This document shows, piece by piece, positions 1 through 63,673 of a DNA stretch of 63,673 nucleotides. The DNA lies in NCBI GenBank assembly GCA_965371225.1, contig CBDUXP010000019.1:1-63673 (forward strand), in the 5' to 3' direction. Position 1 is the first letter of the stretch. Each line of letters starts with the position of its first letter. Position numbers and translations under genes: made by a program. The notes under the pieces were generated by a model. That model made no database searches. It had not been told where the DNA came from and was given only the letters and a program-made list of their open reading frames with translations. This stretch comes from CBDUXP01 sp965371225 [NCBI: uncultured bacterium]. Its GTDB lineage: Bacteria; Abyssobacteria; SURF-5; CBDUXP01.

Positions 1-3000
1 AGTTGCGTGTCGGTCGAGAAATTGCCGACGCTATCCGTGGCGGTCCACGTGACCAGGGTCGCCCCGAGCGGGAACAGGGCCGGGGCATCGTTCAGGATCG
101 AGCTGAGCAAGCAGGAATCGCCGGCGCTGGCGACGCCGATGACGACCGCGGTGCCGGCCGGCCCCGCACACTCCGCCATGACGTCCGCCGGCGCGGTGAT
201 CGTCGGGGGGGTCGTGTCCTGCACGGTGATCAACACGGTGTCCCCGTCCGAGTTGCCCACGCTGTCGGTGACGAGCAGGAAGACGGCGTGCGTGCCGAGG
301 CTAAAGGGAAGCGTCAGCATCGGGCCTGTGCCGAGGAGCGTCTCGACTTCGAACCATTCGTAAATGACGATGTCGGCGGTCCCGTTCGGATCCGTCGATC
401 CCATGCCATCCAGCGTCACGGGCGCGCTGGCGCTGCCGCCCGTGCACTCGACGGGCTGATCCGTCCCGGCGTTCGCCACCGGCGGCAGGTTCGCCTCGAT
501 GGTGATGAAGCCGGTGGAGAAGGCCTCGCACGCCGCATCGTCCGCTGCCTGCACGCGGACGAAGTAATCGCTCGCCGGCGGGATGGTGCCCGGCACGGTC
601 CAGTTCGCGAAGCCCACGTTCGGGATGTTCGCTGCGATGGACGCCACCACCGTGAAAGGCTCTTCGAGCTGCACGAAGTCCACGTTCACGGTCCCGCCCG
701 ACACCGTCGTCCCGGTCCAGAACACGGTTACGTCCGTGTCGACGAACCAGGTATCTCCGTCCGCGGGCCCGAACACGTCCAGCGTGCACCCACCTGCGAG
801 GCAGTTATCCGCGACGAAGATGTCGGTTAGGCCGTTCATGTCGCCGGGTACCAAATTCGATGCGGCTGAGGCGAAGGCGACGACCCGGCCATCTGCGCTG
901 AGAGTGGGGATGAAGTTACTATTGTTCGCTTCAGCGCCCGTGGCGGCTACGCTCACTCGCGTGGTTACGCCCGAGGCTCGGTCGTGTACGAAGATATCAC
1001 CCGTGTTCGTATCCCCGGGCACGAGATTCGACCCAAGCGACACGAACGCCACAAACTGTCCGTCTGCGCTGATGCTCGCGAACTCGCTGGCGCCGTTGCT
1101 CTGTGTCCCGTCCGACGCCACACTTACGCGCGTCGTCGTGCCGGTGGTCCGGTCGTGTACGAACACGTCGTTGAACGCGCCATTCGTATCGCCGGGCACC
1201 AGATTTTGCGCGAGGGACTGGAATGCGACGAACTGGCCATCGGCGCTCAGGCTGGGTTGAGCCGAAAAGCCGTTTGGCTGCACGCCGGCCGAGTCCACGC
1301 TCACCCGTTCCGTGACTCCCGTCACGCGGTCATGCACGAAGATATCACTTATCCCGTTCGTGTCGCCGGCCACCAGATTCGCGGCATTCGAGGTGAACGC
1401 CACGAACCGCCCGTCGGCGCTGAGACTTGCCTGGGAGGACGTGTTATTCCCTTGCACGCCGGCCGAGTCCACGCTCACCCGCTCAGTGATCCCGTTCAGT
1501 CGGTCATGCACGAACACATCGAAGACGCTGTTCGTGTCGCCGGCCGCGAGGTTGGTCGCGCCCGATTGGAAAGCCACGAAGCGGCCGTTGGCGCTAATGC
1601 TCGGAATGGCCGAACCGCCGTTCCCCTGCACGCCCGCCGAGTCCACGCTCACCTGCTCGGTCGTGCCCGTCAGGCGGTCGTGCACGAACACATCCCCGAC
1701 TCCGTTCGTGTCGCCGGCGACCAGATTCGTGGCGTTGGAGTTGAACGCCACGAAGCGGCCGTCGGCACTGATGCTCGCGCTCGCCGAAGGGCCGTCCGCC
1801 TGCGTGCCGCTCGAGTCCACGCTGACGCGTGTGGTGGCGCCGGTCACGCGGTCGTGCACAAAGATGTCTGTCGCACTGTTCGTGTCGCCCGGCACGAGGT
1901 CGGTGGCGTCGGAATGGAACGCCACGAACCGGCCATCGCCGCTCGCACTGGGGAAGGATGAGGCCCCATTGGTCTCCATGCCGGCCGAATCGACGCTGAC
2001 GCGTTCGAGGACGGCGCAGAGCAGGTTCACGGTGACGGTCTGGGTGTCCGCGGCGGTATTGCCCTGGGGATCCTCGGCCGTCCAGGTGACGATGGTGGTG
2101 CCCGGCGGGAAGATGCCGGGCGCGTCGTTCGTGACGGTGACGGCGCCGCACGTATCCGCCGCCGTGGCCGTGCCGATAACCACCGCGGTGCCGGCCGGGT
2201 CGCTCGTCTCCACGCTCACGTCCGCGGGCGCGGTGATGGTGGGCGGCGTGGTGTCCTCGATGGTAACCAGTTGCGTGGCCATCGCAACGTTGCCGGCGAG
2301 GTCGACCGCGGTCCAGGTGACGGTAGTGGGGCCGACAGGGAAGAACTCCGGCGCGTTGTTGCCGACCGACTCCAGCCCGCACGCGTCGGCGACCAGCGGG
2401 ACGCCCAGGATCACGGGCGTGCCCAGGATGTCCGTGCATTCGGTCGTCACGGTGGCGGGGGCCGTAAGCGCGGGGGGCGTGGTATCCACCATCACCTCGA
2501 CGACCTGGGTGTCGGTCGCCGTGTTGCCGCCGGGGTCCGTCGCGGTCCAGGTGACGGTGGTGACGCCGGCGGGGAACAGGGCCGGCGCGTCGTTCGTCAC
2601 CACGGCGCCACAGGCGTCCTCCACCGTCGGGGTCCCCAGGTCGACCGCAGTGCCCTCCGGATCCCCGCACGAGGTGAAAATGTCCGCCGGCGCGATGAGC
2701 GTGGGGGGCACGCTGTCCAGGACGATGATGACCGCCTCGTCCGTATCCGTACTGCCCGCCTCGTCTGCGAGGGTCAGCGTAATGACGTGGGTGCCGACGG
2801 GCAGCGCCACGTCCAGGAGCGGCGTGGTGCCGAGCACCGTGGCGCCCTCACTCCACGCCAGCGCGGCCAGGTCTCCCACCCCGTCGGGGTCGGTCGAGCC
2901 CGTGGCGTCCAGCCGCACGAGCGTGCTGCCGGCCTCGGTGCATTCCAGCACCCGGTCCGGGCCCGCGTCGGCGACAGGCGGCCGGTTCCCGACCGTGACC

Positions 3001-18542: not shown

Positions 18543-20872
18543 TGCGCTTGGAGCAGGCGGCGCGCCGCAGCGTGTTCGCCGTGATCGGTGCCGCCTGGTT
18601 GATCGTGCTGGCGACGCCCGAGTACGGCCTCCTGTGGATTGCGGGCGGGGCGGCGGTGCTCCTGATGGCCTGGCGTTCCCGCGGCCGGTGGGTGCAGCGC
18701 CGCGGCGGCCGCCGCTTCTGGCGCGTGATGGCCGTCGGGGCGCTGGTGGCGCTCCCGCTCGACCTCTTGCTCAGCGCCAGCGTGTTGCATCCCGCGATCC
18801 ACATGGCCCTGCTCACGCAGGCACTCATGCTGTTCGACGCGCCGGCCCCGCGGCGCCATCGCCTGCTGGTGGTGCTCAGCCTGTTCGACGTGCTCGCGGC
18901 CACCGTGCTCACCCAGTCGCTGCTGTTCGCGGTGCTCCTCCTGCTGTACGCGGGCCTGGCCATCGTCGCCCTGACCCTGTTGCATCTCGTGGAGAGCGCG
19001 GCCGAAGCGGCACCGACCCCCGCGGCGGCCGCGGCCGAGGCCCTGCGGTTCGGCGCCGCCCGGCCCCTGGTGCTGGTCATGCTGAGCGCCACCCTGGCCG
19101 TGGTGCCCATCGTCGTGCTGCTGTTCCTGACGCTGCCGCGGTGGGAGTACTCGCTCCTGGCCCGGACCCCGATGAATACCGACGCAGTGCGGCGGCTGCA
19201 GCAGCTCGACCAGGCGCGCAAGCAGACCGGCTTCAGTGACCGGGTCGAGCTGGGGGACTACGGCCGGGTGCAGGAGGACCCGACCGTCGTCATGCGCGTG
19301 AAATTCCCCACCGGCCGGCCCGAGGCGCTGGCGGGTCGCGCCATGTATTGGCGCGCGGGTGCGCTGGACTATTACGACGGGTATAGCTGGGCCGCGAGCA
19401 AGAGCGAATTTGCGTATTACCGGGGCGATCCCGCCAATGCGGACGGCCAGGTCATGCTGGCGCTGGGCGAAGGGCGCGGCCACATCCCGCCCACCGTCGG
19501 CAGCACGGTCTTCGTGAGCACGTACCTTGCGGACAAGGACGTTGCTTCCCTGGAGGACCTTCGGAATCTGGCCGACGTGATTGAACAGGAGGTGTTCCTG
19601 GAGTTGCCGTACGCCGATAACGTGCTGGGACTGCCGCGCGTCGTCGCGATCGACGGGTTCTTTCCCCGCGGCCTGTCCGCGGACCTGAACGGGAGCTACC
19701 GCGTGCTCAGCCGGCCCCTGCTGGCGGAGAAGGTGAGTTACACCGCGTTCTCCGTGTTGCCGACGGCGGACCCCACGGACCTGGGCGACCTCACCATGGA
19801 CACGTTCTTGCCGCTCTTCACGTCCGAATTCTTCGGCCCCTTCTTTCAGGAGCATTACCTGCAGGTGCCGCGCAACCTGACGGCGGAGGTGCGCCGGCAG
19901 GTGGAAGAGCTGACAGCCGGGGCGCCCACCGTGGACGCGAAGGTCGCGGCGCTGCTCGACTACTTCAGCGGTTTTACCTACTCGCTGGAAACGGAGCGGG
20001 TGGCGTTGGGCAGTTGGCCGCTGGATGATTTCTTGTTCGCGACGCAGCAGGGCTACTGCGAGCACTTTGCCACCGCGATGGTCATCATGCTGCGCACGGC
20101 GGGCATCCCGGCGCGCCTTGCCACCGGCTTCAAGGGCGGGATCTGGAACGCCGTGGGCGAGTTCTACGCCATTCGCCAGGCCGATGCCCACACCTGGGCG
20201 GAGGTCTGGGTGCCGGGGCACGGCTGGATTCCCGTCGACCCGGTGCCGGGGGGGAACCCCGCGCCGGATCTCCAACCCTGGCTGGTGCCGGAACAGAACG
20301 CGTACCTGCTGTACGCGCGGGCGTTCTGGCAGGAGCAGGTGCTGGGGTACAACCTCGCCAATCAGACCCGCGCCGCCTCCCTGGCGTGGCAGTGGGTGCG
20401 CGCGCGACCCGGCGTGGTGTGGGACTGGCTACGGCGCGTGCTCGGGAGCATCGGCCGCGGCGTGGGCTGGCTACTGGGGGTGGGCCTGGCGTGGGCAACC
20501 GTGCTCGCCCCGGTGGCCCTCGGCGCGGTGCTGTTCATTCTGTACGTGTGGCGCAACGGTCTGCCCGGTGGCACCCTGCCCCTGCCCGGCCGCAGGGGCC
20601 CCCTCGTGCCCTTCTACCGCGAGATGCTGCGGGCGCTGTATCGTGCCGGTTTCGAGAAGGGGCCGAGCGATCCGCCGCGCGCCTTCGCCGGCCGGGTGGG
20701 TGCCGTCCGCCCGGACCTCGCCGCGGACGTGCGGGCGCTCACGCACATGTACGAGCGGGTGCGCTTCGCCGGGCGCGGCCTGACCGGCCCGGAGACCGCG
20801 AGCGTCCACGCCACATTGAAGCACCTGCGCCGCCGCGCGCCCCGCACCCCGGTGGGCGTGGCGGACGATTGA
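18542..20872 (+). CDS. Transglutaminase-like membrane protein (TgpA-type, DUF3488/DUF4129)
   Basis: A 776-residue protein. The N-terminal ~200 residues form about six membrane helices (DUF3488-like). The periplasmic transglutaminase core has its catalytic triad: Cys in QQGYCEHFAT (~505), His in QADAHTWAEVW (~549) and Asp in IPVDPVPG (~565). A C-terminal helix (~640-665) precedes a cytoplasmic DUF4129-like tail with the RALYRAGFEKGPSDPPRAFAGR pattern. Members of this family are predicted periplasmic cysteine proteases or crosslinking enzymes; TgpA is essential in some Pseudomonas. The third gene of the MoxR operon starts on the last base of the DUF58 stop codon. Confidence 0.92.
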   Translation: MRLEQAARRSVFAVIGAAWLIVLATPEYGLLWIAGGAAVLLMAWRSRGRWVQRRGGRRFWRVMAVGALVALPLDLLLSASVLHPAIHMALLTQALMLFDAPAPRRHRLLVVLSLFDVLAATVLTQSLLFAVLLLLYAGLAIVALTLLHLVESAAEAAPTPAAAAAEALRFGAARPLVLVMLSATLAVVPIVVLLFLTLPRWEYSLLARTPMNTDAVRRLQQLDQARKQTGFSDRVELGDYGRVQEDPTVVMRVKFPTGRPEALAGRAMYWRAGALDYYDGYSWAASKSEFAYYRGDPANADGQVMLALGEGRGHIPPTVGSTVFVSTYLADKDVASLEDLRNLADVIEQEVFLELPYADNVLGLPRVVAIDGFFPRGLSADLNGSYRVLSRPLLAEKVSYTAFSVLPTADPTDLGDLTMDTFLPLFTSEFFGPFFQEHYLQVPRNLTAEVRRQVEELTAGAPTVDAKVAALLDYFSGFTYSLETERVALGSWPLDDFLFATQQGYCEHFATAMVIMLRTAGIPARLATGFKGGIWNAVGEFYAIRQADAHTWAEVWVPGHGWIPVDPVPGGNPAPDLQPWLVPEQNAYLLYARAFWQEQVLGYNLANQTRAASLAWQWVRARPGVVWDWLRRVLGSIGRGVGWLLGVGLAWATVLAPVALGAVLFILYVWRNGLPGGTLPLPGRRGPLVPFYREMLRALYRAGFEKGPSDPPRAFAGRVGAVRPDLAADVRALTHMYERVRFAGRGLTGPETASVHATLKHLRRRAPRTPVGVADD

Positions 20873-21010
20873 CTGCGCCCGCGCGGGCGACATCTCACGT
20901 TTCATAAGAGGGTAGGCGCCGGTCGAAGGGGAAAGCGGTTGCGCGAAGCGCAGAGCGGGAGTCCGGGCTCGGCGGCGACAAAGACCGGCCACTACCCGGT
21001 CGCCGGTCAG

Positions 21011-37393: not shown

Positions 37394-38296
37394 TCAGCCG
37401 GTGGCCGCGCGGGCGGCCTCGGCCTGGTGGGTATGCGCGGTGACGGCCTCGATCACCTGGGGCCACATGGGGACCGGGAGGCTGTGGCCCCAGCCCTCGA
37501 CGGTGATGAGCTGCGCGTCCGGGATGGCGGCGGCGGTGGCTTCGCCGTGCTCCACGGGGATGAGCGGGTCCGCGCGACCGTGCATGACCAGAGTGGGGAC
37601 CTCCAGGGAGCCCAACGCTGCCGTCCGGTCCTCGGCGCAGAGGGCCGCCAGGTACTGGCGTCCGGCGCCGGGGGGATGGTGGCACCGGTCGTAGGCGCGG
37701 GCCGCGGTCTCGCGTACCGCCGCTTCGTCCACGGGGAACGTGCCGTTCAGCACCCGGTTCTCGCGGGCTTTCTGCTCGATGAAGTCCTCACGCGACTTGG
37801 AGGGGGGCGCGAGCAAGACCGCCTGGGCCTCGGGAGTTGGGTGCGGACTGCGGCGCATGCAGGGGGTGGACATGACGCTGGTCAGACTGCGGACCCGCTC
37901 CGGGTGGCGCAGCGCCCACACCTGCCCGATCATTCCGCCCAGGGAGACGCCGCAGACATGCGCGGCATCGAGTTCCAGCGCGTCCAGCAGCCCGGCCGTG
38001 TCGTCGGCCATGTCCTGCAGTGTGTAGGGCGGCGCGTACGCCTCACCGTTGCGTAGCGCGGCGATGGCCTTCATGACCCGCGGCGGCCCCAGGTGGTCCA
38101 GCTTGGAGGAGAGGCCCACGTCGCGATTGTCGAAGCGGATTACGTAGTGGCCTGCCTTCGCCAGCCGCTCGCAGAATTCCAGCGGCCAGTGGATCATCTG
38201 GCGGCTGAGCCCCATGATCAGCACCAGCGGCGGCTGGGCGAACGAGCCGAACGTCTCGTATTCCAGTTCGATGCCGTTGGATTGTGCGCGCGGCAT
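37394..38296 (-). CDS. Alpha/beta-hydrolase fold protein
   Basis: 300 residues. The oxyanion/core region is PPLVLIMGLSRQMIHWPLEF, the nucleophile elbow AAHVCGVSLGGMIGQVWAL (GxSxG, Ser about 107), the acid in VMHGRADPLIP and the histidine in VEGWGHSLP, together giving Ser-Asp-His. The family resembles esterase/haloperoxidase-like hydrolases (RFDNRDVGLSSKLD is typical). Substrate unknown. It stands alone on the minus strand with 240 bp downstream and about 190 bp upstream, the latter leading into the lysS-duplication region. Confidence 0.9.
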   Translation of the reverse strand: MPRAQSNGIELEYETFGSFAQPPLVLIMGLSRQMIHWPLEFCERLAKAGHYVIRFDNRDVGLSSKLDHLGPPRVMKAIAALRNGEAYAPPYTLQDMADDTAGLLDALELDAAHVCGVSLGGMIGQVWALRHPERVRSLTSVMSTPCMRRSPHPTPEAQAVLLAPPSKSREDFIEQKARENRVLNGTFPVDEAAVRETAARAYDRCHHPPGAGRQYLAALCAEDRTAALGSLEVPTLVMHGRADPLIPVEHGEATAAAIPDAQLITVEGWGHSLPVPMWPQVIEAVTAHTHQAEAARAATG

Positions 38297-38448: not shown

Positions 38449-38560
38449 AAGGACTTACACGCGCAAAGTCTGTAGAATGTTTCCCCAATGGCGGACGAAT
38501 CTCCGGAGCGGCTGCGGCAGCATCGGCTGGACAAGCTGGCGGCGACGCGCGAGGCGGGGA
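38449..38560. repeat. Left copy of the lysS 5'-end direct repeat (112 bp)
   Basis: Matches 39592-39703 at 109 of 112 positions. The three differences are at 38459, 38481 and 38483, all upstream of the ATG; the 73 coding bases are identical. The copy holds the whole lysS -10 region (TAGAAT at 38473-38478) and codons 1-24. It ends precisely where the foreign DUF4238 segment begins, so it is a partial gene duplication that brackets the insert. Confidence 0.9.
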
Positions 38561-38604
38561 GCCATATGTCTAATGCGCCTAAGACTGACAAGGAACGCAT
38601 TTGA
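38488..38604 (+). pseudogene. lysS: Truncated lysS 5' fragment fused to a short foreign reading frame
   Basis: ATG 38488 begins the same 24 codons as the true lysS (MADESPERLRQHRLDKLAA, then TREAG). The frame then continues into foreign sequence for 14 codons (SHMSNAPKTDKERI) and stops at TGA 38602-38604. The next three bases are the ATG of the DUF4238 gene. An AAGGAA at 38590-38595 inside this reading frame is a good ribosome site for DUF4238. The result is a 38-codon leader ORF that could couple translation of DUF4238 to the lysS promoter copy. Confidence 0.8.
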
Positions 38605-39528
38605 ATGAGCCATATGACTAGCGGGCGACATGAGCAGAAGGTTAAACATCACTATCTTTCCCGCTTTTATCTCGCTGCCTTCACTGACGATGGTACTCGG
38701 AGGGGCGCGTTGACGGTAGTCGATAGGTGGTCGGGTTCGGTGAGAGGCAGTAGGCCGGGAAGTGAAGCTTTTGAAAAGCACTACAACACGGTTTCAGGAC
38801 CAAGACCGGATATAGCGGAGGACATTCTCGCGAAGTTTGAAGGAACCCTTGCACCACCTATCAAGGATTTTGTCAAGCACCGTTCTTTCCTCAGTAATGG
38901 ACATGTCGACTGTGTGACTTTGTACCTGGCATTCATGCACGTCACCACGCCGGTCATTCGTTCTACATATAACGCGCTGGTAGAGGAACATATCCAGTAT
39001 GTCTATGACACGATGACATACCGAGGTGAGTTTCCTCCTCTAGACCCCAATTTGCCACCGAAGGTTCGGGAAGCTCTGAAGTATGTGCGAGCGAAAGCCG
39101 ATATTCCCCCTGACTGGTTTCTATCACAGCTTCCACAAGCGATGAGTGTGATATGGGAGCTCTTCAAGAAGAGAAAGTGGCGCGTGATACTGGCAACTGA
39201 CGATTCTGGAGATCTGGTTTCTTGCGATAGACCCATTGCTTTGGAGCGAAACGACGTGCCAGTAGGAATGATCCGTGACGATGTCCGGTTCGACGAGCCC
39301 AATACAACCGTGTACGTTCCGATGGGTAAGAAGGTGGGCCTTTTAGGAAGCTCTGACAGGACTGCGAGATCGATCATGGCGGATCGCACAATGGTCGCGT
39401 CTCTGAACTCCATAATCGCAATGAACGCGCAGCGGTGGATCTATTGCAGTTCAAGCGATGTGGAGTTCATGTTTCGAGGTGGAATTACGACTATGGAGGA
39501 GTACCTCAAGCAGGCGGGGCTTGGGTAA
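38605..39528 (+). CDS. DUF4238-domain protein, low-GC foreign gene
   Basis: 307 residues. KVKHHYLSRFYLAAFTDD near residue 12 and the C-terminal DDSGDLVSCDRPIALERND followed by TTVYVPMGKKVGLL fit the DUF4238 family, whose function is unknown. The gene is visibly poorer in G+C (about half) than all neighbours and uses ATA, AGA and AGG codons that they avoid, pointing to lateral acquisition. It has no transposase, integrase or partner beside it. Start ATG 38605 follows a TGA with one reading frame shared, and AAGGAA lies 9 nt upstream. No signal peptide or membrane helix. Confidence 0.88.
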   Translation: MSHMTSGRHEQKVKHHYLSRFYLAAFTDDGTRRGALTVVDRWSGSVRGSRPGSEAFEKHYNTVSGPRPDIAEDILAKFEGTLAPPIKDFVKHRSFLSNGHVDCVTLYLAFMHVTTPVIRSTYNALVEEHIQYVYDTMTYRGEFPPLDPNLPPKVREALKYVRAKADIPPDWFLSQLPQAMSVIWELFKKRKWRVILATDDSGDLVSCDRPIALERNDVPVGMIRDDVRFDEPNTTVYVPMGKKVGLLGSSDRTARSIMADRTMVASLNSIIAMNAQRWIYCSSSDVEFMFRGGITTMEEYLKQAGLG

Positions 39529-39591
39529 TTGATGGGGAGCCTAGCGGTCCGGGCGACCCCGCCCCAAGCTGGCCAGATTCTCTTTGATTGC

Positions 39592-39703
39592 AAGGACTTA
39601 CGCGCGCAAAGTCTGTAGAATGTGTGCCCAATGGCGGACGAATCTCCGGAGCGGCTGCGGCAGCATCGGCTGGACAAGCTGGCGGCGACGCGCGAGGCGG
39701 GGA
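39592..39703. repeat. Right copy of the lysS 5'-end direct repeat (112 bp)
   Basis: The functional copy, continuous with intact lysS. It begins AAGGACTTAC and runs into codon 24 of lysS. The distance from the left copy is 1,143 bp. Sequence immediately upstream of both copies shows only faint resemblance (CTTT...AAGG), so the repeat ends sharply. Confidence 0.9.
39616..39621 (+). promoter_or_regulatory. lysS -10 element (TAGAAT)
   Basis: TAGAAT ends 9 nt before ATG 39631, with no ribosome site between them, so the lysS message may be leaderless. The same element is at 38473-38478 in the left repeat copy. A -35 is not clear. Confidence 0.45.
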
Positions 39704-41166
39704 TCGAGCCGTACGTGCCGCAGTTCCGCCGGACGCATACGGCGACGGACGCGCGCGCGGCGGCGGACGCGGCGCCGGCACGGCTGGAGGAGGGCGGCGC
39801 GCCGCTGACGGTGACGGTGGCCGGGCGGCTGATGGCCCGGCGATCCGCGTTCGGCACGCTGGAGGACAGCACCGGGCGCATCCAACTCCTGGTACACAAG
39901 GATTTCCTCGGGACGCCCCTGGACGGGGCCGCGCCGGACCCGGACGCGCCGCTCGCCGGCAAGCCGGGCTACAAGCGCTGGGAGAAGCTGTTCAACATCG
40001 GCGACATCATCGGCGCGACGGGCGAACTGTTCACGACCAAGACGGGGGAGTTGACGGTGCGGGTGCGCGAGCTGACCATGCTCACGAAGAGCCTGCAGAT
40101 GCTGCCGGAGAAGTGGCACGGGCTGAAGGACAAGGAGCTGCGCTACCGGCAGCGGTACGTGGACCTGATCGCGAACCCGGAGGTGCGCGCTGCGTTCCGC
40201 ACCCGGAGCACGATCCTCAGCACCCTGCGGCGGGCGTTCGAGGCGCGCGGCTATATAGAGGTAGAGACCCCCGTGCTCCAGCCCATCCCCGGCGGGGCGC
40301 TGGCGCGGCCGTTCCGGACGCACTACAACGCACTGGAGCGGGACATGTACCTGCGCGTGGCGCTGGAGCTGCACCTGAAGCGGCTCATCGTCGGCGGGTT
40401 CGACAAGGTGTTCGAAATCAACCGGTGTTTCCGGAACGAGGGACTCAGCTACCGGCACCAGCCGGAGTTCACCATGCTGGAGAGTTACGAAGCGTACGCG
40501 GACTACACGGACATCATGGTGCTGCTGGAGGAGACGCTGACGGAAGTGGTGCAGGCCGTGTGCGGCGGGCCCACGTTCACCTACCAGGGGCAGGAGATCA
40601 CGGTGCGCCCCGGCTGGCCGCGGATCGCGCTGCTGGACGCCATCGCCGAGCACTCGGGCGTGGCGCTGCACGATACGGACGACATCGCCGAGGCGAAGCG
40701 GCGCACGCGGGACTTGAAGGAGCTGGACCTGCCGCCGGGCGCGGGGTATGGCAAGCTGGTGGACGAGATGCTCAAGACCTTCGTGGCGCCGAAGCTCATC
40801 CAGCCGACGTTCTTGATCGATTACCCCCTCGAACTCTCGCCCCTGGCCAAGAAGCACCGCAGCAAAGCCGGGCTGACGGAGCGGTTCCAGCCGTACATCG
40901 GCGGGCTCGAGCTGGGCAACGCGTTTACCGAGCTGAACGATCCGCTGGACCAGCGCGCCCGGTTCGAGAAGCAGCAGGAGCTGAAGGCGCAGGGCGACGC
41001 GGAGACGCACCCGCTGGACGAAGATTTTCTGACGGCGCTGGAGTACGGCATGCCGCCCACGGGCGGGCTCGGAATCGGCATCGACCGCCTCGTAATGCTG
41101 CTCACGGACAGCGCGCACATTCGCGACGTGATCTTCTTTCCGCAGTTGCGCCAGGAGGCCACCTAG
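39631..41166 (+). CDS. lysS: Lysyl-tRNA synthetase, class II
   Basis: 511 residues from ATG 39631. The N-terminal OB-fold contains TVTVAGRLMARRSAFGTLEDSTGRIQLLV. Class II motifs are YRQRYVDLI, FEINRCFRNEGLSYRHQPEFTMLESYEAY (motif 2) and GGLGIGIDRLVMLLTDSAHIRDVIFFPQLR (motif 3). The length is normal for bacterial LysS. It charges tRNA-Lys. An in-frame GTG at 39622 would add three residues, but the ATG is the conserved site in both repeat copies. It is followed 9 bp later by the lipoprotein-release permease. Confidence 0.97.
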   Translation: MADESPERLRQHRLDKLAATREAGIEPYVPQFRRTHTATDARAAADAAPARLEEGGAPLTVTVAGRLMARRSAFGTLEDSTGRIQLLVHKDFLGTPLDGAAPDPDAPLAGKPGYKRWEKLFNIGDIIGATGELFTTKTGELTVRVRELTMLTKSLQMLPEKWHGLKDKELRYRQRYVDLIANPEVRAAFRTRSTILSTLRRAFEARGYIEVETPVLQPIPGGALARPFRTHYNALERDMYLRVALELHLKRLIVGGFDKVFEINRCFRNEGLSYRHQPEFTMLESYEAYADYTDIMVLLEETLTEVVQAVCGGPTFTYQGQEITVRPGWPRIALLDAIAEHSGVALHDTDDIAEAKRRTRDLKELDLPPGAGYGKLVDEMLKTFVAPKLIQPTFLIDYPLELSPLAKKHRSKAGLTERFQPYIGGLELGNAFTELNDPLDQRARFEKQQELKAQGDAETHPLDEDFLTALEYGMPPTGGLGIGIDRLVMLLTDSAHIRDVIFFPQLRQEAT

Positions 41167-41175
41167 GTCGCGCGC

Positions 41176-42405
41176 ATGGGATTCGTGCTCCGCGTCGCCT
41201 GGCGCTATTTCGCTTCCAAACGGAAAACGTCCTTCATCAGTCTGATCGCGTTCCTCAGCATCGGGGGCATCGCCATCGGGGTCATGGCGCTCATCGTCGT
41301 CCTGGGCGTGATGACCGGGTTCGATCAGATGCTGTTCGAGACGGTCATGGGCGCCACGAGCGACGTGGTGGTCACCCGCGAGGGGGGCATGGTGGAATGG
41401 CAGCAGGTGCTGGAGGAGGTGCGGCAAGTGGACGAGGTGGAGAGTGCCGCGCCGTTCTTCCACGGCCAAGTGCTGCTCCGGTCGGCGGATCACGTGATCG
41501 GCGCGGCCCTCCGCGGCGTATCGCCGGGCGAGGACGGGACGGTGACGGACTTCTACGCGAACCTGCGGAAAGGGGAAGGCGTGCTGGAGCCCGGGGGCAT
41601 CGTGCTCGGCCGCGAGCTGGCGCGCACGCTGCGCGTCGGCGTGGGCGACACGATCCAGGTCATTTCCCCGTACTTCATCTCGACGCCGCGGGGGGAGGTG
41701 CCGCTGCGCAAAGCCATGCCGGTGACGGGGCTGACCGTGAGCGGCATGTACGAGTACGATTCGACGTTCTGTTACGTGACGCTGCAGCAGGCGCAGGCGC
41801 TGTTCGGGGTGGTGGACACGGTCGCGGGCATCGAAGTGCGGCTGGTGGACCCGTACCGGGCCGAACAGGTGAGCGCCATCATCGCCGAGCGGTTGGACTA
41901 CCGGTACGACGCGCGGAGCTGGGTGGCGTTGAACCGCACGTACATCGCGGCGCTGCGGCACGAGAAAGTCATCATGGCGATCATCCTGATCCTCATCCTG
42001 CTGGTGGCGGCGTTCAACATCGCGAGCACGCTGATCATGGTGGTGATGGAGAAGACGAAAGACATCGGCATTCTCAAGACCATCGGCGTTACCGCGCGCC
42101 AGGTGCAGGCTATTTTCATTCTCGTGGGCGTCATCGTCGGCAGCCTGGGCTTGGCCCTCGGCAACGTGGGCGGCATCCTGCTTAGCCGGAACCTGAACGC
42201 GGTGGTGGACTTCGTCGAAGCGCGATTTGGCATCGGTCTGTTCCCTGCCGATATTTACTATTTTCAGGAAATTCCCGTTTTGATCTCCCCACCGGAAGTG
42301 CTTGCGATCAATGCCTTTGCGCTTTTAGTCACCGTGGCGGCGGCGTGGTACCCCGCCTGGCACGGTTCCCGCCTGCCTCCCGTCGATGCGCTGCGCTATG
42401 AGTGA
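41176..42405 (+). CDS. lolC: Lipoprotein-releasing ABC transporter permease LolC/LolE family
   Basis: 409 residues with four membrane helices: one near residues 20-50 (KRKTSFISLIAFLSIGGIAIGVMALIVVLGV, a LolC/E hallmark) and three at the C-terminus (VIMAIILILILLVAAFNIAST, QAIFILVGVIVGSLGLALGN, LLVTVAAAWYPAW). A large periplasmic domain lies between. The GILKTIGVTARQV coupling segment contacts the ATPase. Only one permease gene is present here, so it may act as a homodimer (LolF-like) or pair with a LolE elsewhere. Its last bases overlap the lolD start (ATGAGTGA). Confidence 0.92.
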   Translation: MGFVLRVAWRYFASKRKTSFISLIAFLSIGGIAIGVMALIVVLGVMTGFDQMLFETVMGATSDVVVTREGGMVEWQQVLEEVRQVDEVESAAPFFHGQVLLRSADHVIGAALRGVSPGEDGTVTDFYANLRKGEGVLEPGGIVLGRELARTLRVGVGDTIQVISPYFISTPRGEVPLRKAMPVTGLTVSGMYEYDSTFCYVTLQQAQALFGVVDTVAGIEVRLVDPYRAEQVSAIIAERLDYRYDARSWVALNRTYIAALRHEKVIMAIILILILLVAAFNIASTLIMVVMEKTKDIGILKTIGVTARQVQAIFILVGVIVGSLGLALGNVGGILLSRNLNAVVDFVEARFGIGLFPADIYYFQEIPVLISPPEVLAINAFALLVTVAAAWYPAWHGSRLPPVDALRYE

Positions 42406-43078
42406 CGTGGTCCGCGCGGTCGGATTGCAGAAGGTGTACCGCACTGGTACACTTGAAGTTGAGGTTCTCCGAGGCATCGACTGCACCTTTCAGGCTAACG
42501 AGACGGTGGCCGTGGTGGGGGCGTCTGGTGTTGGAAAGAGCACGCTGCTCCACGTGCTGGGGACGCTCGACCGGCCGACCGGGGGCGCCGTCTACTACGG
42601 GGAGCAGGACATTACGCTGCTGGATGATCGCCGCCTCGCGGCGGTGCGCAACCAGCACGTGGGTTTCGTGTTCCAGTTCTTTCACCTGTTGCCCGAGTTC
42701 ACGGCGCTTGAGAACGTGGCCCTTCCGGCCTTGGTGGCCGGGCAGCCCCTCAGCCCCGCCCGGGGTCGCGCCCAGGCGTTGCTGGAGGCCGTCGGGCTCG
42801 GAGCCCGCGCGGCGCACCGCCCGGACCAATTGTCCGGCGGCGAGCAGCAGCGGGTGGCGATTGCACGTGCGCTGATCAACGAACCGCAGATCGTGTTCGC
42901 TGATGAGCCCACGGGCAATTTGGACGAAGAAACGAGCAACGATGTGCTGGCATTGCTTTGGAATTTGCAGCAGGCCCGTGGGACGACGCTGGTCGTGGTC
43001 ACCCACGATCCGGATGTGGCCCGCCGGGCGGACCGGACGCTGCATTTAGTGGACGGCCGATTTGTCGATAAAGACTGA
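42398..43078 (+). CDS. lolD: Lipoprotein-releasing ABC transporter ATP-binding protein
   Basis: 226 residues from ATG 42398. Walker A GASGVGKST (about 40), Q-loop VFQFFHLLPEFTALENV, signature LSGGEQQRVAIARAL, Walker B IVFADEPTGNLDEE and switch VVVTHD are complete. The combination of FHLLPEFTALENV and DEPTGNLD is characteristic of the LolD/MacB subgroup. Together with the preceding permease it extracts lipoproteins from the inner membrane. Its start lies 8 bp inside the permease gene. Confidence 0.95.
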   Translation: MSDVVRAVGLQKVYRTGTLEVEVLRGIDCTFQANETVAVVGASGVGKSTLLHVLGTLDRPTGGAVYYGEQDITLLDDRRLAAVRNQHVGFVFQFFHLLPEFTALENVALPALVAGQPLSPARGRAQALLEAVGLGARAAHRPDQLSGGEQQRVAIARALINEPQIVFADEPTGNLDEETSNDVLALLWNLQQARGTTLVVVTHDPDVARRADRTLHLVDGRFVDKD

Positions 43079-50851: not shown

Positions 50852-51883
50852 GTGACGCTGACGCTGGGCGAAATCGCCACCATGCTGCACACCGACCTGG
50901 AAGGGGATCCGGGGATGGAGATCCGCGGCGTGTGTGGCCTCGAGGACGCCGGGCCCGGCGATATCACCTTTCTCGCCAACCTGAAGTACGAGCCCCTGCT
51001 GCGCACGACGAAAGCCAGTGCCGTCATCGTGGGGCCGGACGTTCCGGTGGCGGGCCCGGCCATCTTGCGCGCGGCCGACCCGTACCTGGCGTTCGGCCGC
51101 CTCCTCGCGCATTTCGCCGGCGAGGCGGGCCATCACACCGGTCGCCACCGGAACGCGGTGGTTGCGCCGACCGCCTCCGTAGCGGCGAGCGCGGCGCTGC
51201 ACGCGGGGGTTGTGGTGGAGGCGGACGCCGTCATCGAGGCGGACTGCGTGCTCTACCCCGGCGTGTTCATCGGCGCGGGGAGCCACATCGGGACGGGGGC
51301 GTTGCTGTATCCGAACGTAGTCGTGCGGGGGCGCGCGCACATCGGCGCGCGGTGCATCCTCCACAGCGGCGTCGTGCTGGGCGCGGTGGGTGCGCCTCCG
51401 CCCGGCGCCGCCGACACGGACCCGGCGCCAGCGGGCCCGCGCATTATCCTCGAAGACGACGTAGAGCTGGGTGCGCACACTACGGTCGACAGCGGCGTCG
51501 AGCTTCCGACCACTATCGGCGCGGGCACCAAGACGGACAACCTGGTGCACGTGGGGGCGAGCGTGACCATCGGCCCGGGCTGCCTCGTGGTGGCGCAGGT
51601 GGGCATCGGCCCGGGCGCCACCATTGGCGCGGGCGTGACCTTGGCCGGCCAAGCCACCGTGCTGCCCAACGTCAGCGTGGGTGACGGGGCGATCGTCGCC
51701 GCCAAGGCGGGCGTGCAAGACGATTTGCCCGGCGGCCGCCTGTACTCCGGCACTCCCGCGCGGCCCCATGAAGAGCAGAAGCAGATGTATGCCGCGATGC
51801 GCCGCCTGCCGCGCAGCCGGCTGCGCGTGCAGGACCTGGCGCGGCGGCTGCGCGCGTTGGAGGAGGACCGGGCGGGTGGCTAA
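50852..51883 (+). CDS. lpxD: UDP-3-O-acylglucosamine N-acyltransferase
   Basis: 343 residues starting at GTG 50852. The N-terminal domain (TLGEIATMLHTDLEGDPGMEIRGVCGLEDAGPGDITFLAN) is the LpxD uridine-binding part. The rest is the left-handed beta-helix of hexapeptide repeats, including IGTGALLYPNVVVRGRAHIGARCILHSGVVLG, ending DLPGGRLYSGTPARPHEEQ. It adds the second hydroxyacyl chain to UDP-GlcN(acyl) in lipid A synthesis. The stop overlaps the lpxC-fabZ start by 8 bp. Confidence 0.94.
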   Translation: MTLTLGEIATMLHTDLEGDPGMEIRGVCGLEDAGPGDITFLANLKYEPLLRTTKASAVIVGPDVPVAGPAILRAADPYLAFGRLLAHFAGEAGHHTGRHRNAVVAPTASVAASAALHAGVVVEADAVIEADCVLYPGVFIGAGSHIGTGALLYPNVVVRGRAHIGARCILHSGVVLGAVGAPPPGAADTDPAPAGPRIILEDDVELGAHTTVDSGVELPTTIGAGTKTDNLVHVGASVTIGPGCLVVAQVGIGPGATIGAGVTLAGQATVLPNVSVGDGAIVAAKAGVQDDLPGGRLYSGTPARPHEEQKQMYAAMRRLPRSRLRVQDLARRLRALEEDRAGG

Positions 51884-53255
51884 ACAGCGCACACTGGCGC
51901 GCCCGGCCACCTGCCGCGGCATCGGGTTGCATACCGGGCATGACACCACCATGACGTTTCAGCCGGCGCCGCCGGACACGGGGCTCGTCTTCCGGCGCGT
52001 CGACCTGCCGGATGCCCCGTGCGTGCCGGCCGATGTGGCGCACGTGACCGGGACCGATCGGGGCACGACCCTCGCCGTCGGGGACACGGCCATCCACACG
52101 GTGGAACACGTGCTCGCGGCCCTGTACGCGATGGAGATTGACAACTGCGTGGTGGACCTGGACGCGCCCGAGCCGCCGGTGCTCGATGGCTCGTCCGTCG
52201 GGTTCGGCCAGGCGTTGGCCGCAGCGGGCGCGGTCGAACAGGACGCGACCCGGGCCGAGTACGTGGTGACCGAACCGATCGCCCTGTCCCTCGGTGACGT
52301 GACCATCTCCGTCCTTCCCGCCGACGAATTGCGCCTGTCCTACACGATCGCCTACGGGCACCCGGTCCTGGGCTCCCAGTTCGGTTCCCTCGTCATTTCG
52401 CCCGACACCTTCCTGCAAGAAATCGCCCCGGCACGCACCTTCTGCTTCCTCTCGGATGTGGAGGCGCTCAAGGCCAGTGGGCTGATCCGCGGCGGGAGCC
52501 TCGAGAACGCGGTGGTTATCGGGGAGGACACCGTGCTCAACGAGGAGCTGCGGTTCGCCGACGAATTCGTGCGCCACAAGATGCTCGATCTGTTGGGGGA
52601 TCTGGCGCTCTTCGGCCCCCGTCTGCGGGGCCACGTAACGGCTACCAAAGCCGGCCACGGAGCGCACGTGGCGTTCCTGCGGCACCTGCGCGAGCGGACG
52701 GGGGTGGTGGCCGGTCCCAATGGGCGGACCGAGAACCCGGCGCCGGCGGACGGGCTTCAGCCCTCCATGGGCGTCGCCGCAACGCGGAAGTTCCTACCGC
52801 TGGATCGCGACGCCATCGGGCGCCTCATTCCGCATCGAGAACCGTTCCTGTTCGTGGATGAGATTACGGAATTGCGCGAGGATTTCGTGGCGGGCACGTA
52901 CCGGTTGCGTGAGGATGACTGGTTCTTCCGCGGCCACTTTCCCGGCATGCCCGTCACCCCCGGGGTGATCATGATTGAGGCCGTGGCGCAGGTGGGCGGC
53001 GTACTGATCCGCGTCGTGCTGCCGGATCCGGATTGCATTCCCGTCATGCTCACGCTGGAGAACGTCAAGTTTCGCGCCGCGGTCCGGCCGGGCAGCGTGC
53101 TGCGCGTGGAAGTGAAGGCCCTGCGAATGAAGCGGCGGATCGGCAAGCTGGATGGCCGCGCCTACGTGGACGGGGACCTGGTCTGTGAGGGGCGGGTGGT
53201 GTTCAGCATGGTACCGGCGGCGCGCGTCCGGACCCTGGGGCGGGCGGGCATTTGA
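51876..53255 (+). CDS. lpxC/fabZ: Bifunctional LpxC/FabZ: UDP-3-O-acyl-GlcNAc deacetylase and 3-hydroxyacyl-ACP dehydratase
   Basis: 459 residues from GTG 51876, behind GGAGGAGG. Residues about 1-300 are LpxC: IGLHTGHDTTM, HTVEHVLAALYAMEIDN, ARTFCFLSDVE and FVRHKMLDLLGDLALFG contain the zinc histidines and the catalytic residues. Residues about 312-445 are FabZ: LIPHREPFLFVDEI and GHFPGMPVTPGVIMIEAVAQVGG carry the catalytic His and the Glu. A short linker (NGRTENPAPADGLQ) joins them. The fusion couples the committed step of lipid A to the dehydratase competing for its precursor. Fusions of this kind are known from Bacteroidetes and some other phyla. Confidence 0.94.
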   Translation: MAKQRTLARPATCRGIGLHTGHDTTMTFQPAPPDTGLVFRRVDLPDAPCVPADVAHVTGTDRGTTLAVGDTAIHTVEHVLAALYAMEIDNCVVDLDAPEPPVLDGSSVGFGQALAAAGAVEQDATRAEYVVTEPIALSLGDVTISVLPADELRLSYTIAYGHPVLGSQFGSLVISPDTFLQEIAPARTFCFLSDVEALKASGLIRGGSLENAVVIGEDTVLNEELRFADEFVRHKMLDLLGDLALFGPRLRGHVTATKAGHGAHVAFLRHLRERTGVVAGPNGRTENPAPADGLQPSMGVAATRKFLPLDRDAIGRLIPHREPFLFVDEITELREDFVAGTYRLREDDWFFRGHFPGMPVTPGVIMIEAVAQVGGVLIRVVLPDPDCIPVMLTLENVKFRAAVRPGSVLRVEVKALRMKRRIGKLDGRAYVDGDLVCEGRVVFSMVPAARVRTLGRAGI

Positions 53256-63389: not shown

Positions 63390-63673
63390 CAACTGGAGAG
63401 TTTGATCCTGGCTCAGAACGAACGCTGGCGGCGTGCTTAACACATGCAAGTCGAACGCGAAAGCCCCCTTCGGGGGGCGAGTAGAGTGGCGAACGGGTGA
63501 GTAACGCGTGGGTAACCTGCCTCGAAGTGGGGGATAACGCCGGGAAACCGGCGCTAATACCGCATACGGTTGCGCCGTCTTCGGACGGGGCAAGCAAAGC
63601 CTTCGGGCGCTTTGAGAGGGGCCCGCGTCGCATTAGCTTGTTGGTGGGATAACAGCCTACCAAGGCTTCGATG
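63390..63673 (+). rRNA. rrs: 16S ribosomal RNA, 5' part (runs off the window)
   Basis: The AGAGTTTGATCCTGGCTCAG primer-site sequence begins at 63397, equivalent to E. coli position 8, so the mature 5' end is about 63390. It continues through AACGAACGCTGGCGGCGTGC, the ACATGCAAGTCGAACG region, variable region V1 (CGCGAAAGCCCCC/GGGGGGC hairpin), GGCGAACGGGTGAGTAACGCG and V2 to the edge at 63673. About 284 nt of the gene are present, on the plus strand. Confidence 0.97.

Follow-up and report, generated by a model that had tools for sequence, protein, structure and literature searches.

Insertion with long target duplication was reportedly first described in Helicobacter pylori by Nobusato et al. 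in 2000. Such insertions are frequent with restriction-modification (R-M) genes of that species, as described in PMC1643837 (also PMC4978471 and PMC3154945). Other elements target the 5′ end of a gene of their host and supply that gene with a promoter and N-terminus; SXT at prfC and IMEVchUSA3 at dusA are the cases set out in PMC8409611. Homology-facilitated illegitimate recombination is an established process by the accounts in PMC3240628 and PMC5361080. We compared with these systems a locus in a 63,673-nucleotide (nt) stretch of contig CBDUXP010000019.1, referred to as the window. In this locus, a gene of the DUF4238 family lies between two copies of the 5′ end of lysS, the lysyl-tRNA synthetase gene. 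We consider it likely that the lysS operon received, at its 5′ end, a foreign single-gene DUF4238 unit of anti-phage type by insertion with long target duplication.

The two copies form a direct repeat of 112 nt on the plus strand (38449-38560 and 39592-39703), identical at 109 of 112 positions (97.3%; BLAST E 1e-48) and 1,143 nt apart from start to start. Each copy comprises 39 nt upstream of the lysS ATG, 24 codons and 1 further nt; the right copy is the present 5′ end of lysS. No other pair in the window was at least 50 nt long, at least 85% identical and 400-6000 nt apart. The three mismatches (38459 A/G, 38481 T/G and 38483 C/G) all lie 5′ of the ATG (38488 in the left copy, 39631 in the right copy). 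The probability that all three fall by chance within the 39 non-coding bases of the 112 is 0.040. None lies beyond nt 35 of the repeat, which leaves 77 nt without a difference (chance probability 0.029).

The first-pass annotation of this DNA had stated that the differences are all non-coding, which is true for the ATG start only. The open reading frame (ORF) finder placed the lysS start at GTG 39622; with this start, two of the differences become coding, and that GTG is missing from the left copy. The other structural claims of the annotation held up: the lysS start segment is duplicated at a distance of 1,143 nt, a single low-GC gene with foreign codon usage lies between the copies, the right copy leaves lysS whole, and no integrase is visible.

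The DUF4238 gene (38605-39528, plus strand) encodes 307 amino acids and is the sole domain-bearing ORF between the repeats. Its product matched PF14022 over the entire profile (positions 1-281 of 281; E 5e-26; 92.1 bits, curated cut-off 27). Conserved residues of the protein include His16 and Asp208. The GC content of the gene was 51.1% versus 67.8% for the window, and its GC content at third codon positions (GC3) was 0.56 versus 0.93 for lysS. Among 43 window ORFs of at least 450 nt, chosen by a rough composition rule, it had the lowest GC3, the most deviant codon usage and the lowest codon adaptation index (0.345, calculated against the other 42 ORFs; next lowest, 0.515). The GC fraction of the 1-kb blocks was 0.63-0.74 throughout the window, apart from the two blocks containing this gene (0.582 and 0.607). 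The best reading is that DUF4238 was acquired horizontally.

PADLOC matched the DUF4238 protein to the defence family DUF4238-Pers (E 1.4e-13), and one single DUF4238 protein of the P2 hotspot conferred strong T7 resistance as described in PMC9122126. The gene studied here shares the Pfam domain and the single-gene form with that anti-phage gene and the PADLOC family; the relatives are distant, and by analogy its function may be defence of the anti-phage type. Distant DUF4238 relatives were present in 12 plasmid records and two records of one phage; the relative in Escherichia phage pro483 was 20.5% identical. A scan of viral contigs, sensitive to close relatives only, found no relative, and no solved structure matched below E 0.39. 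Single-sequence structure prediction gave a mean predicted local distance difference test score (pLDDT) of 33.9 and was not used.

lysS itself is intact (39631-41166, plus strand). Its product matched tRNA-synt_2 in Pfam (E 4e-87), has an OB fold and has full-length relatives at up to 57% identity. The right repeat copy runs into this whole gene; the start of the target gene is thus rebuilt. A gene for a lolCE-like permease starts 9 nt past lysS and overlaps a lolD-like ATPase gene (both within 41176-43078, plus strand; Pfam MacB_PCD/FtsX and ABC_tran, and synteny). The lysS-lolCE-lolD order was found again at many of the fetched loci, e.g. L002-L004, L009, L010 and L102. The downstream genes of this run are essential in other organisms. 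Because lysS heads the run, genes that are essential elsewhere would be cut off by an insertion that did not rebuild the start. An insertion at this position would survive only if the start was rebuilt, and the right copy does so.

A Pfam scan confined to the 43 window ORFs of at least 450 nt detected no integrase or transposase family. A weak TniB match on a ClpC-like ATPase was weaker than the AAA matches of the same protein, and we take it to reflect the AAA domain of that ATPase. The window contained no tRNA.

The left copy opens a leader ORF of 38 codons (38488-38604, plus strand), 24 from lysS and 14 foreign. This leader shares the frame of DUF4238, and its TGA stop (38602-38604) abuts the DUF4238 ATG at 38605. 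It is presumably translated. A possible Shine-Dalgarno sequence, AAGGA (38590-38594, plus strand), was noted by eye 10 nt before this ATG; translation of DUF4238 could use its own ribosome site or re-initiation after the leader ORF. A −10-like TAGAAT, likewise recognized by eye, lies 9 nt before the lysS ATG (39616-39621, plus strand; 38473-38478 in the left copy). Its position suggests a near-leaderless promoter within the repeat, which would also drive DUF4238. A consensus promoter scan did not call this element. DUF4238 apparently sits behind a housekeeping gene's own start region. Read-through of the TGA to give a LysS-DUF4238 fusion was considered unlikely; 15 of 36 window ORFs terminate with TGA.

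On the other side of DUF4238, a GC-rich spacer of 63 nt (39529-39591, plus strand; 63.5% GC) separates the stop codon from the right copy and differs from the sequence that natively precedes the left copy. The interval between the repeats consists of one gene and 107 other nt. RNA folding of the leader and spacer gave no signal (z 0.53 and 0.78, respectively).

The locus resembles the H. pylori insertions in its defence-type gene, in direct repeats of host sequence that far exceed a transposon target duplication, and in having no transposase or integrase in the insert. It differs from them in that its cargo consists of one DUF4238 gene in place of an R-M system, and in that the duplication covers the start region of an essential gene that heads an operon. 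With the SXT and dusA elements it shares a 5′-end insertion site in a gene of the host, which is kept running by a supplied promoter and N-terminus, and a rebuilt target-gene start. Those elements, however, are larger, bear an integrase and supply a diverged N-terminus, whereas here there is one gene, no integrase was found, and the 24 codons are identical. The first-pass annotation had offered as a novelty the mirror image of elements that restore tRNA 3′ ends. That claim does not stand, because rebuilding of 5′ ends is already described for SXT at prfC and for dusA in PMC8409611.

Homology-facilitated illegitimate recombination, with one homologous and one illegitimate join, would yield the anatomy seen at lysS; it is a process and not an element, and for lysS it is a proposed route. 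Strings of orphaned 3′ ends known elsewhere mirror the orphaned lysS 5′ end here. The lysS insertion is of an already described kind, in a rare, operon-saving 5′-end form. Minimal mobile elements of Neisseria are genes swapped between conserved flanks by homologous recombination with no recombinase of their own; unlike at these, no alternative cargo was seen at lysS.

A search of six genome sets (1,576 genome look-ups; at least four genomes were searched twice) gave 93 DUF4238 loci, several of which are fragments of one gene. Distribution was patchy: the gene occurred in 2 of 68, 1 of 12, 25 of 385, 15 of 369, 37 of 396 and 13 of 346 genomes. For 85 of the 93 loci there was enough flank for a repeat test (cut-off E ≤1e-3). 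Flanking direct repeats were detected at three of these 85: L125 (281 nt, 79% identity), L180 (56 nt, 98%) and L148 (21 nt). In a rough control with random gene-sized stretches, a direct repeat was found across 5 of 300. On these figures, the idea that DUF4238 habitually inserts between repeats was rejected. Neither the L125 nor the L180 repeat is the 5′ end of a protein gene; the 21-nt repeat of L148 was not read.

Two of these loci have recognizable surroundings. In L125 (reverse complement), DUF4238 and an ORF that is antitoxin-like by eye lie between repeats of a tRNA 3′ end (approximately 107-374 and 2522-2801), an arrangement that looks like an old insertion at a tRNA. In L180, DUF4238 lies between repeats at 516-571 and 2560-2615, adjoined by a partial ORF that by eye is serine-recombinase-like.

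We also surveyed the upstream regions of other lysS genes. At least 700 nt of upstream DNA was available at 101 of 110 loci, which represent 95 distinct places (six were fetched twice). For 4 of these 101 loci, the match to LysS starts at residue 58-62, and the start used there is a guess. A second long copy of the lysS start was detected upstream at none of the 101 loci. The sole direct matches to the start were of 27 nt (L042) and 23 nt (L062), both of borderline significance. The survey does not support lysS as an insertion hot spot. A first look at all 110 loci showed tandem, inverted or non-coding repeats in L004/L086, L019, L044, L047, L058, L074, L096 and L098; it took in loci that have no upstream DNA, and its result for L068 is meaningless.

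The frequency of such structures was estimated from repeat pairs of at least 50 nt and at least 85% identity that are 400-6000 nt apart. Five loci with such pairs were present in 1.35 Mb of lysS-neighbourhood DNA and four in 1.6 Mb from four genomes (2.95 Mb in total). One gene appears to lie between the repeats at three of the nine: L030 and L031, where the 3′ end of a gene is repeated, and L215, where a non-coding stretch is repeated. In L019 and L047 the repeats are non-coding and have several genes between them. L231 and L249 consist of whole genes in tandem. The repeats of L059 and L220 lie within long ORFs, the right copy of L059 also containing an ORF start. None of the nine is a duplicated 5′ end that encloses a foreign gene. 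In the DNA surveyed, one gene between long repeats occurs about once per Mb, and the 5′-end form was met only at the present locus. In Escherichia coli, Staphylococcus aureus and Streptococcus pyogenes, 10-18% of small variable segments have flanking direct repeats, and 66-94% of these repeats are shorter than 30 bp, by the figures given in PMC2884548. Because of these figures and our scan, a gene between direct repeats is to be regarded as ordinary; the length of the repeat and its position at a 5′ end are unusual.

Three of the nine loci deserve mention on their own account. A gene for a flavin adenine dinucleotide-dependent enzyme (by eye) lies between copies of its neighbour's 3′ end in L030 (19127-19259 and 20594-20726), as does a GNAT acetyltransferase gene (by eye) in L031 (19011-19263 and 20023-20275). 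Judged from their layout, these two appear to be the 3′ counterpart of the lysS finding. In L059, a 218-nt repeat of 94% identity (19576-19793 and 20773-20990) lies within ORFs that by eye contain the methyltransferase-like motif NPPYQ; this may be an R-M gene that was rearranged.

The DUF4238 insertion was probably made by recombination anchored on lysS homology. The incoming DNA would have carried DUF4238 adjoining a lysS 5′ segment. At the right join, this donor segment would have recombined homologously with the resident lysS; the left join would have been illegitimate, within lysS codon 25. Alternatively, integration of a small circle by one crossover would end in the same arrangement. 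The original upstream start region and its 24 codons would thereby become the leader ahead of DUF4238, and the second start region would keep lysS and its operon running. If the crossover fell within the repeat, the upstream part would derive from the donor and the downstream part from the resident gene. The confinement of the mismatches to the first 35 nt is explained in this way, because a crossover inside the repeat would leave such a pattern. The first-pass annotation had also proposed a cargo insertion that rebuilt an essential gene; the repeat, composition, codon usage and operon position agree with this proposal, but its direction and recency find no such support.

Several points weigh against insertion by this route. 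For an argument from a crossover, three mismatches are a small number. Similarity upstream of the repeats showed no significant extension (anchored p 0.475), such as a homologous donor flank might show; an unanchored local alignment of the same regions gave p 0.02 versus simple shuffles, a weak value that we do not trust. No empty site was shown in a relative, the closest full-length LysS being 57% identical. The same anatomy was absent at the 101 other lysS loci and the 85 DUF4238 loci, and the insertion structure is therefore without independent repetition. Misassembly across the 112-nt repeat is also possible. If the insertion is accepted, the locus is a clean example of a lone defence-type gene that settled ahead of an essential operon with no recombinase and no lethal effect on the cell. 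Relatives with the same repeat and other cargo, if there are such, would bring single-gene defence and the 5′ ends of genes into the long-target-duplication class.

An alternative that we regard as unlikely is that a larger element of the SXT/prfC or dusA type, driven by an integrase, left the locus as its remnant; the integrase part would have been lost, and the repeats would be attachment (att) sites. In favour of this reading, DUF4238 is flanked in L125 by a tRNA 3′ end with adjoining sequence and by a diverged copy of 281 nt, and in L180 by 56-nt repeats near the ORF that resembles a serine recombinase by eye. The lysS repeat, however, is 112 nt long, which exceeds the usual att cores, and near-identical across upstream and coding region. 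The single gene and 107 other nt between the repeats, the lack of a recombinase in the 43 window ORFs scanned by Pfam, and the lack of a long repeated lysS start at the 101 other lysS loci also argue against a remnant.

Tandem duplications are common in bacteria. The lysS region might have been duplicated in tandem, with DUF4238 entering one copy and the rest of that copy deleted to leave the 112-nt remnant. This in-situ rearrangement would give the same end product, with near-identical copies and no need for a donor lysS; it requires three events, however, and the 63-nt spacer (39529-39591) does not match what natively lies 5′ of the left copy. We judge it improbable.

An assembly artefact, in which strain variants of a metagenome were joined via the 112-nt repeat, seems quite improbable. 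The window may derive from a metagenome, and a repeat of this length is within the range that confuses short-read assembly; against this, the copies show three differences and have unique flanks of their own, and the leader ORF and the DUF4238 start match in frame. Very improbable is a mobile unit of 1,143 nt that is self-contained and lacks a recombinase. In such a unit, an anti-phage gene would be joined to the lysS start region, and the lysS segment would provide the homology arm used in excision and re-insertion, the cargo promoter with coupled leader, and target repair; if real, the unit would spread single defence genes among relatives with a conserved lysS 5′ end.

The best full-length LysS match among 68 Hydrogenedentota genomes was 57% identical (match in 67 of 68; shorter fragments score higher). 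In a species-wide scan of genomes for LysS, the top seven of the 80 loci kept were all in the Hydrogenedentota phylum set, at 51-54%. The Rfam scan of the window gave a 16S rRNA 5′ end (63390-63673) as its sole match. Over its full length, this segment was at most about 80% identical to those of Hydrogenedentota (match in 38 of 68 genomes), which points to a deep, unplaced lineage. Because the LysS and 16S identities are low, the source organism has no close relative in the collections compared.

The divergent left neighbour of the repeat encodes an alpha/beta hydrolase (37394-38296, minus strand; Pfam Abhydrolase_1, E 9e-25). After lolD follow genes for an McsA-like protein with a UVR motif, an ATP:guanido phosphotransferase (McsB-like) and the ClpC-like ATPase. 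The window neighbours are housekeeping genes, including those for aspartyl- and histidyl-type tRNA synthetases, cytochrome b, a BamA-like protein, LpxC, PolA, Rho and LptF/G. At the left end of the window (1-2600), repeat-rich ORFs have no Pfam match, and their internal copies are approximately 71-79% identical. At 51681-53255, LpxC and FabA-like domains occur in one ORF, an apparent LpxC-FabZ fusion.
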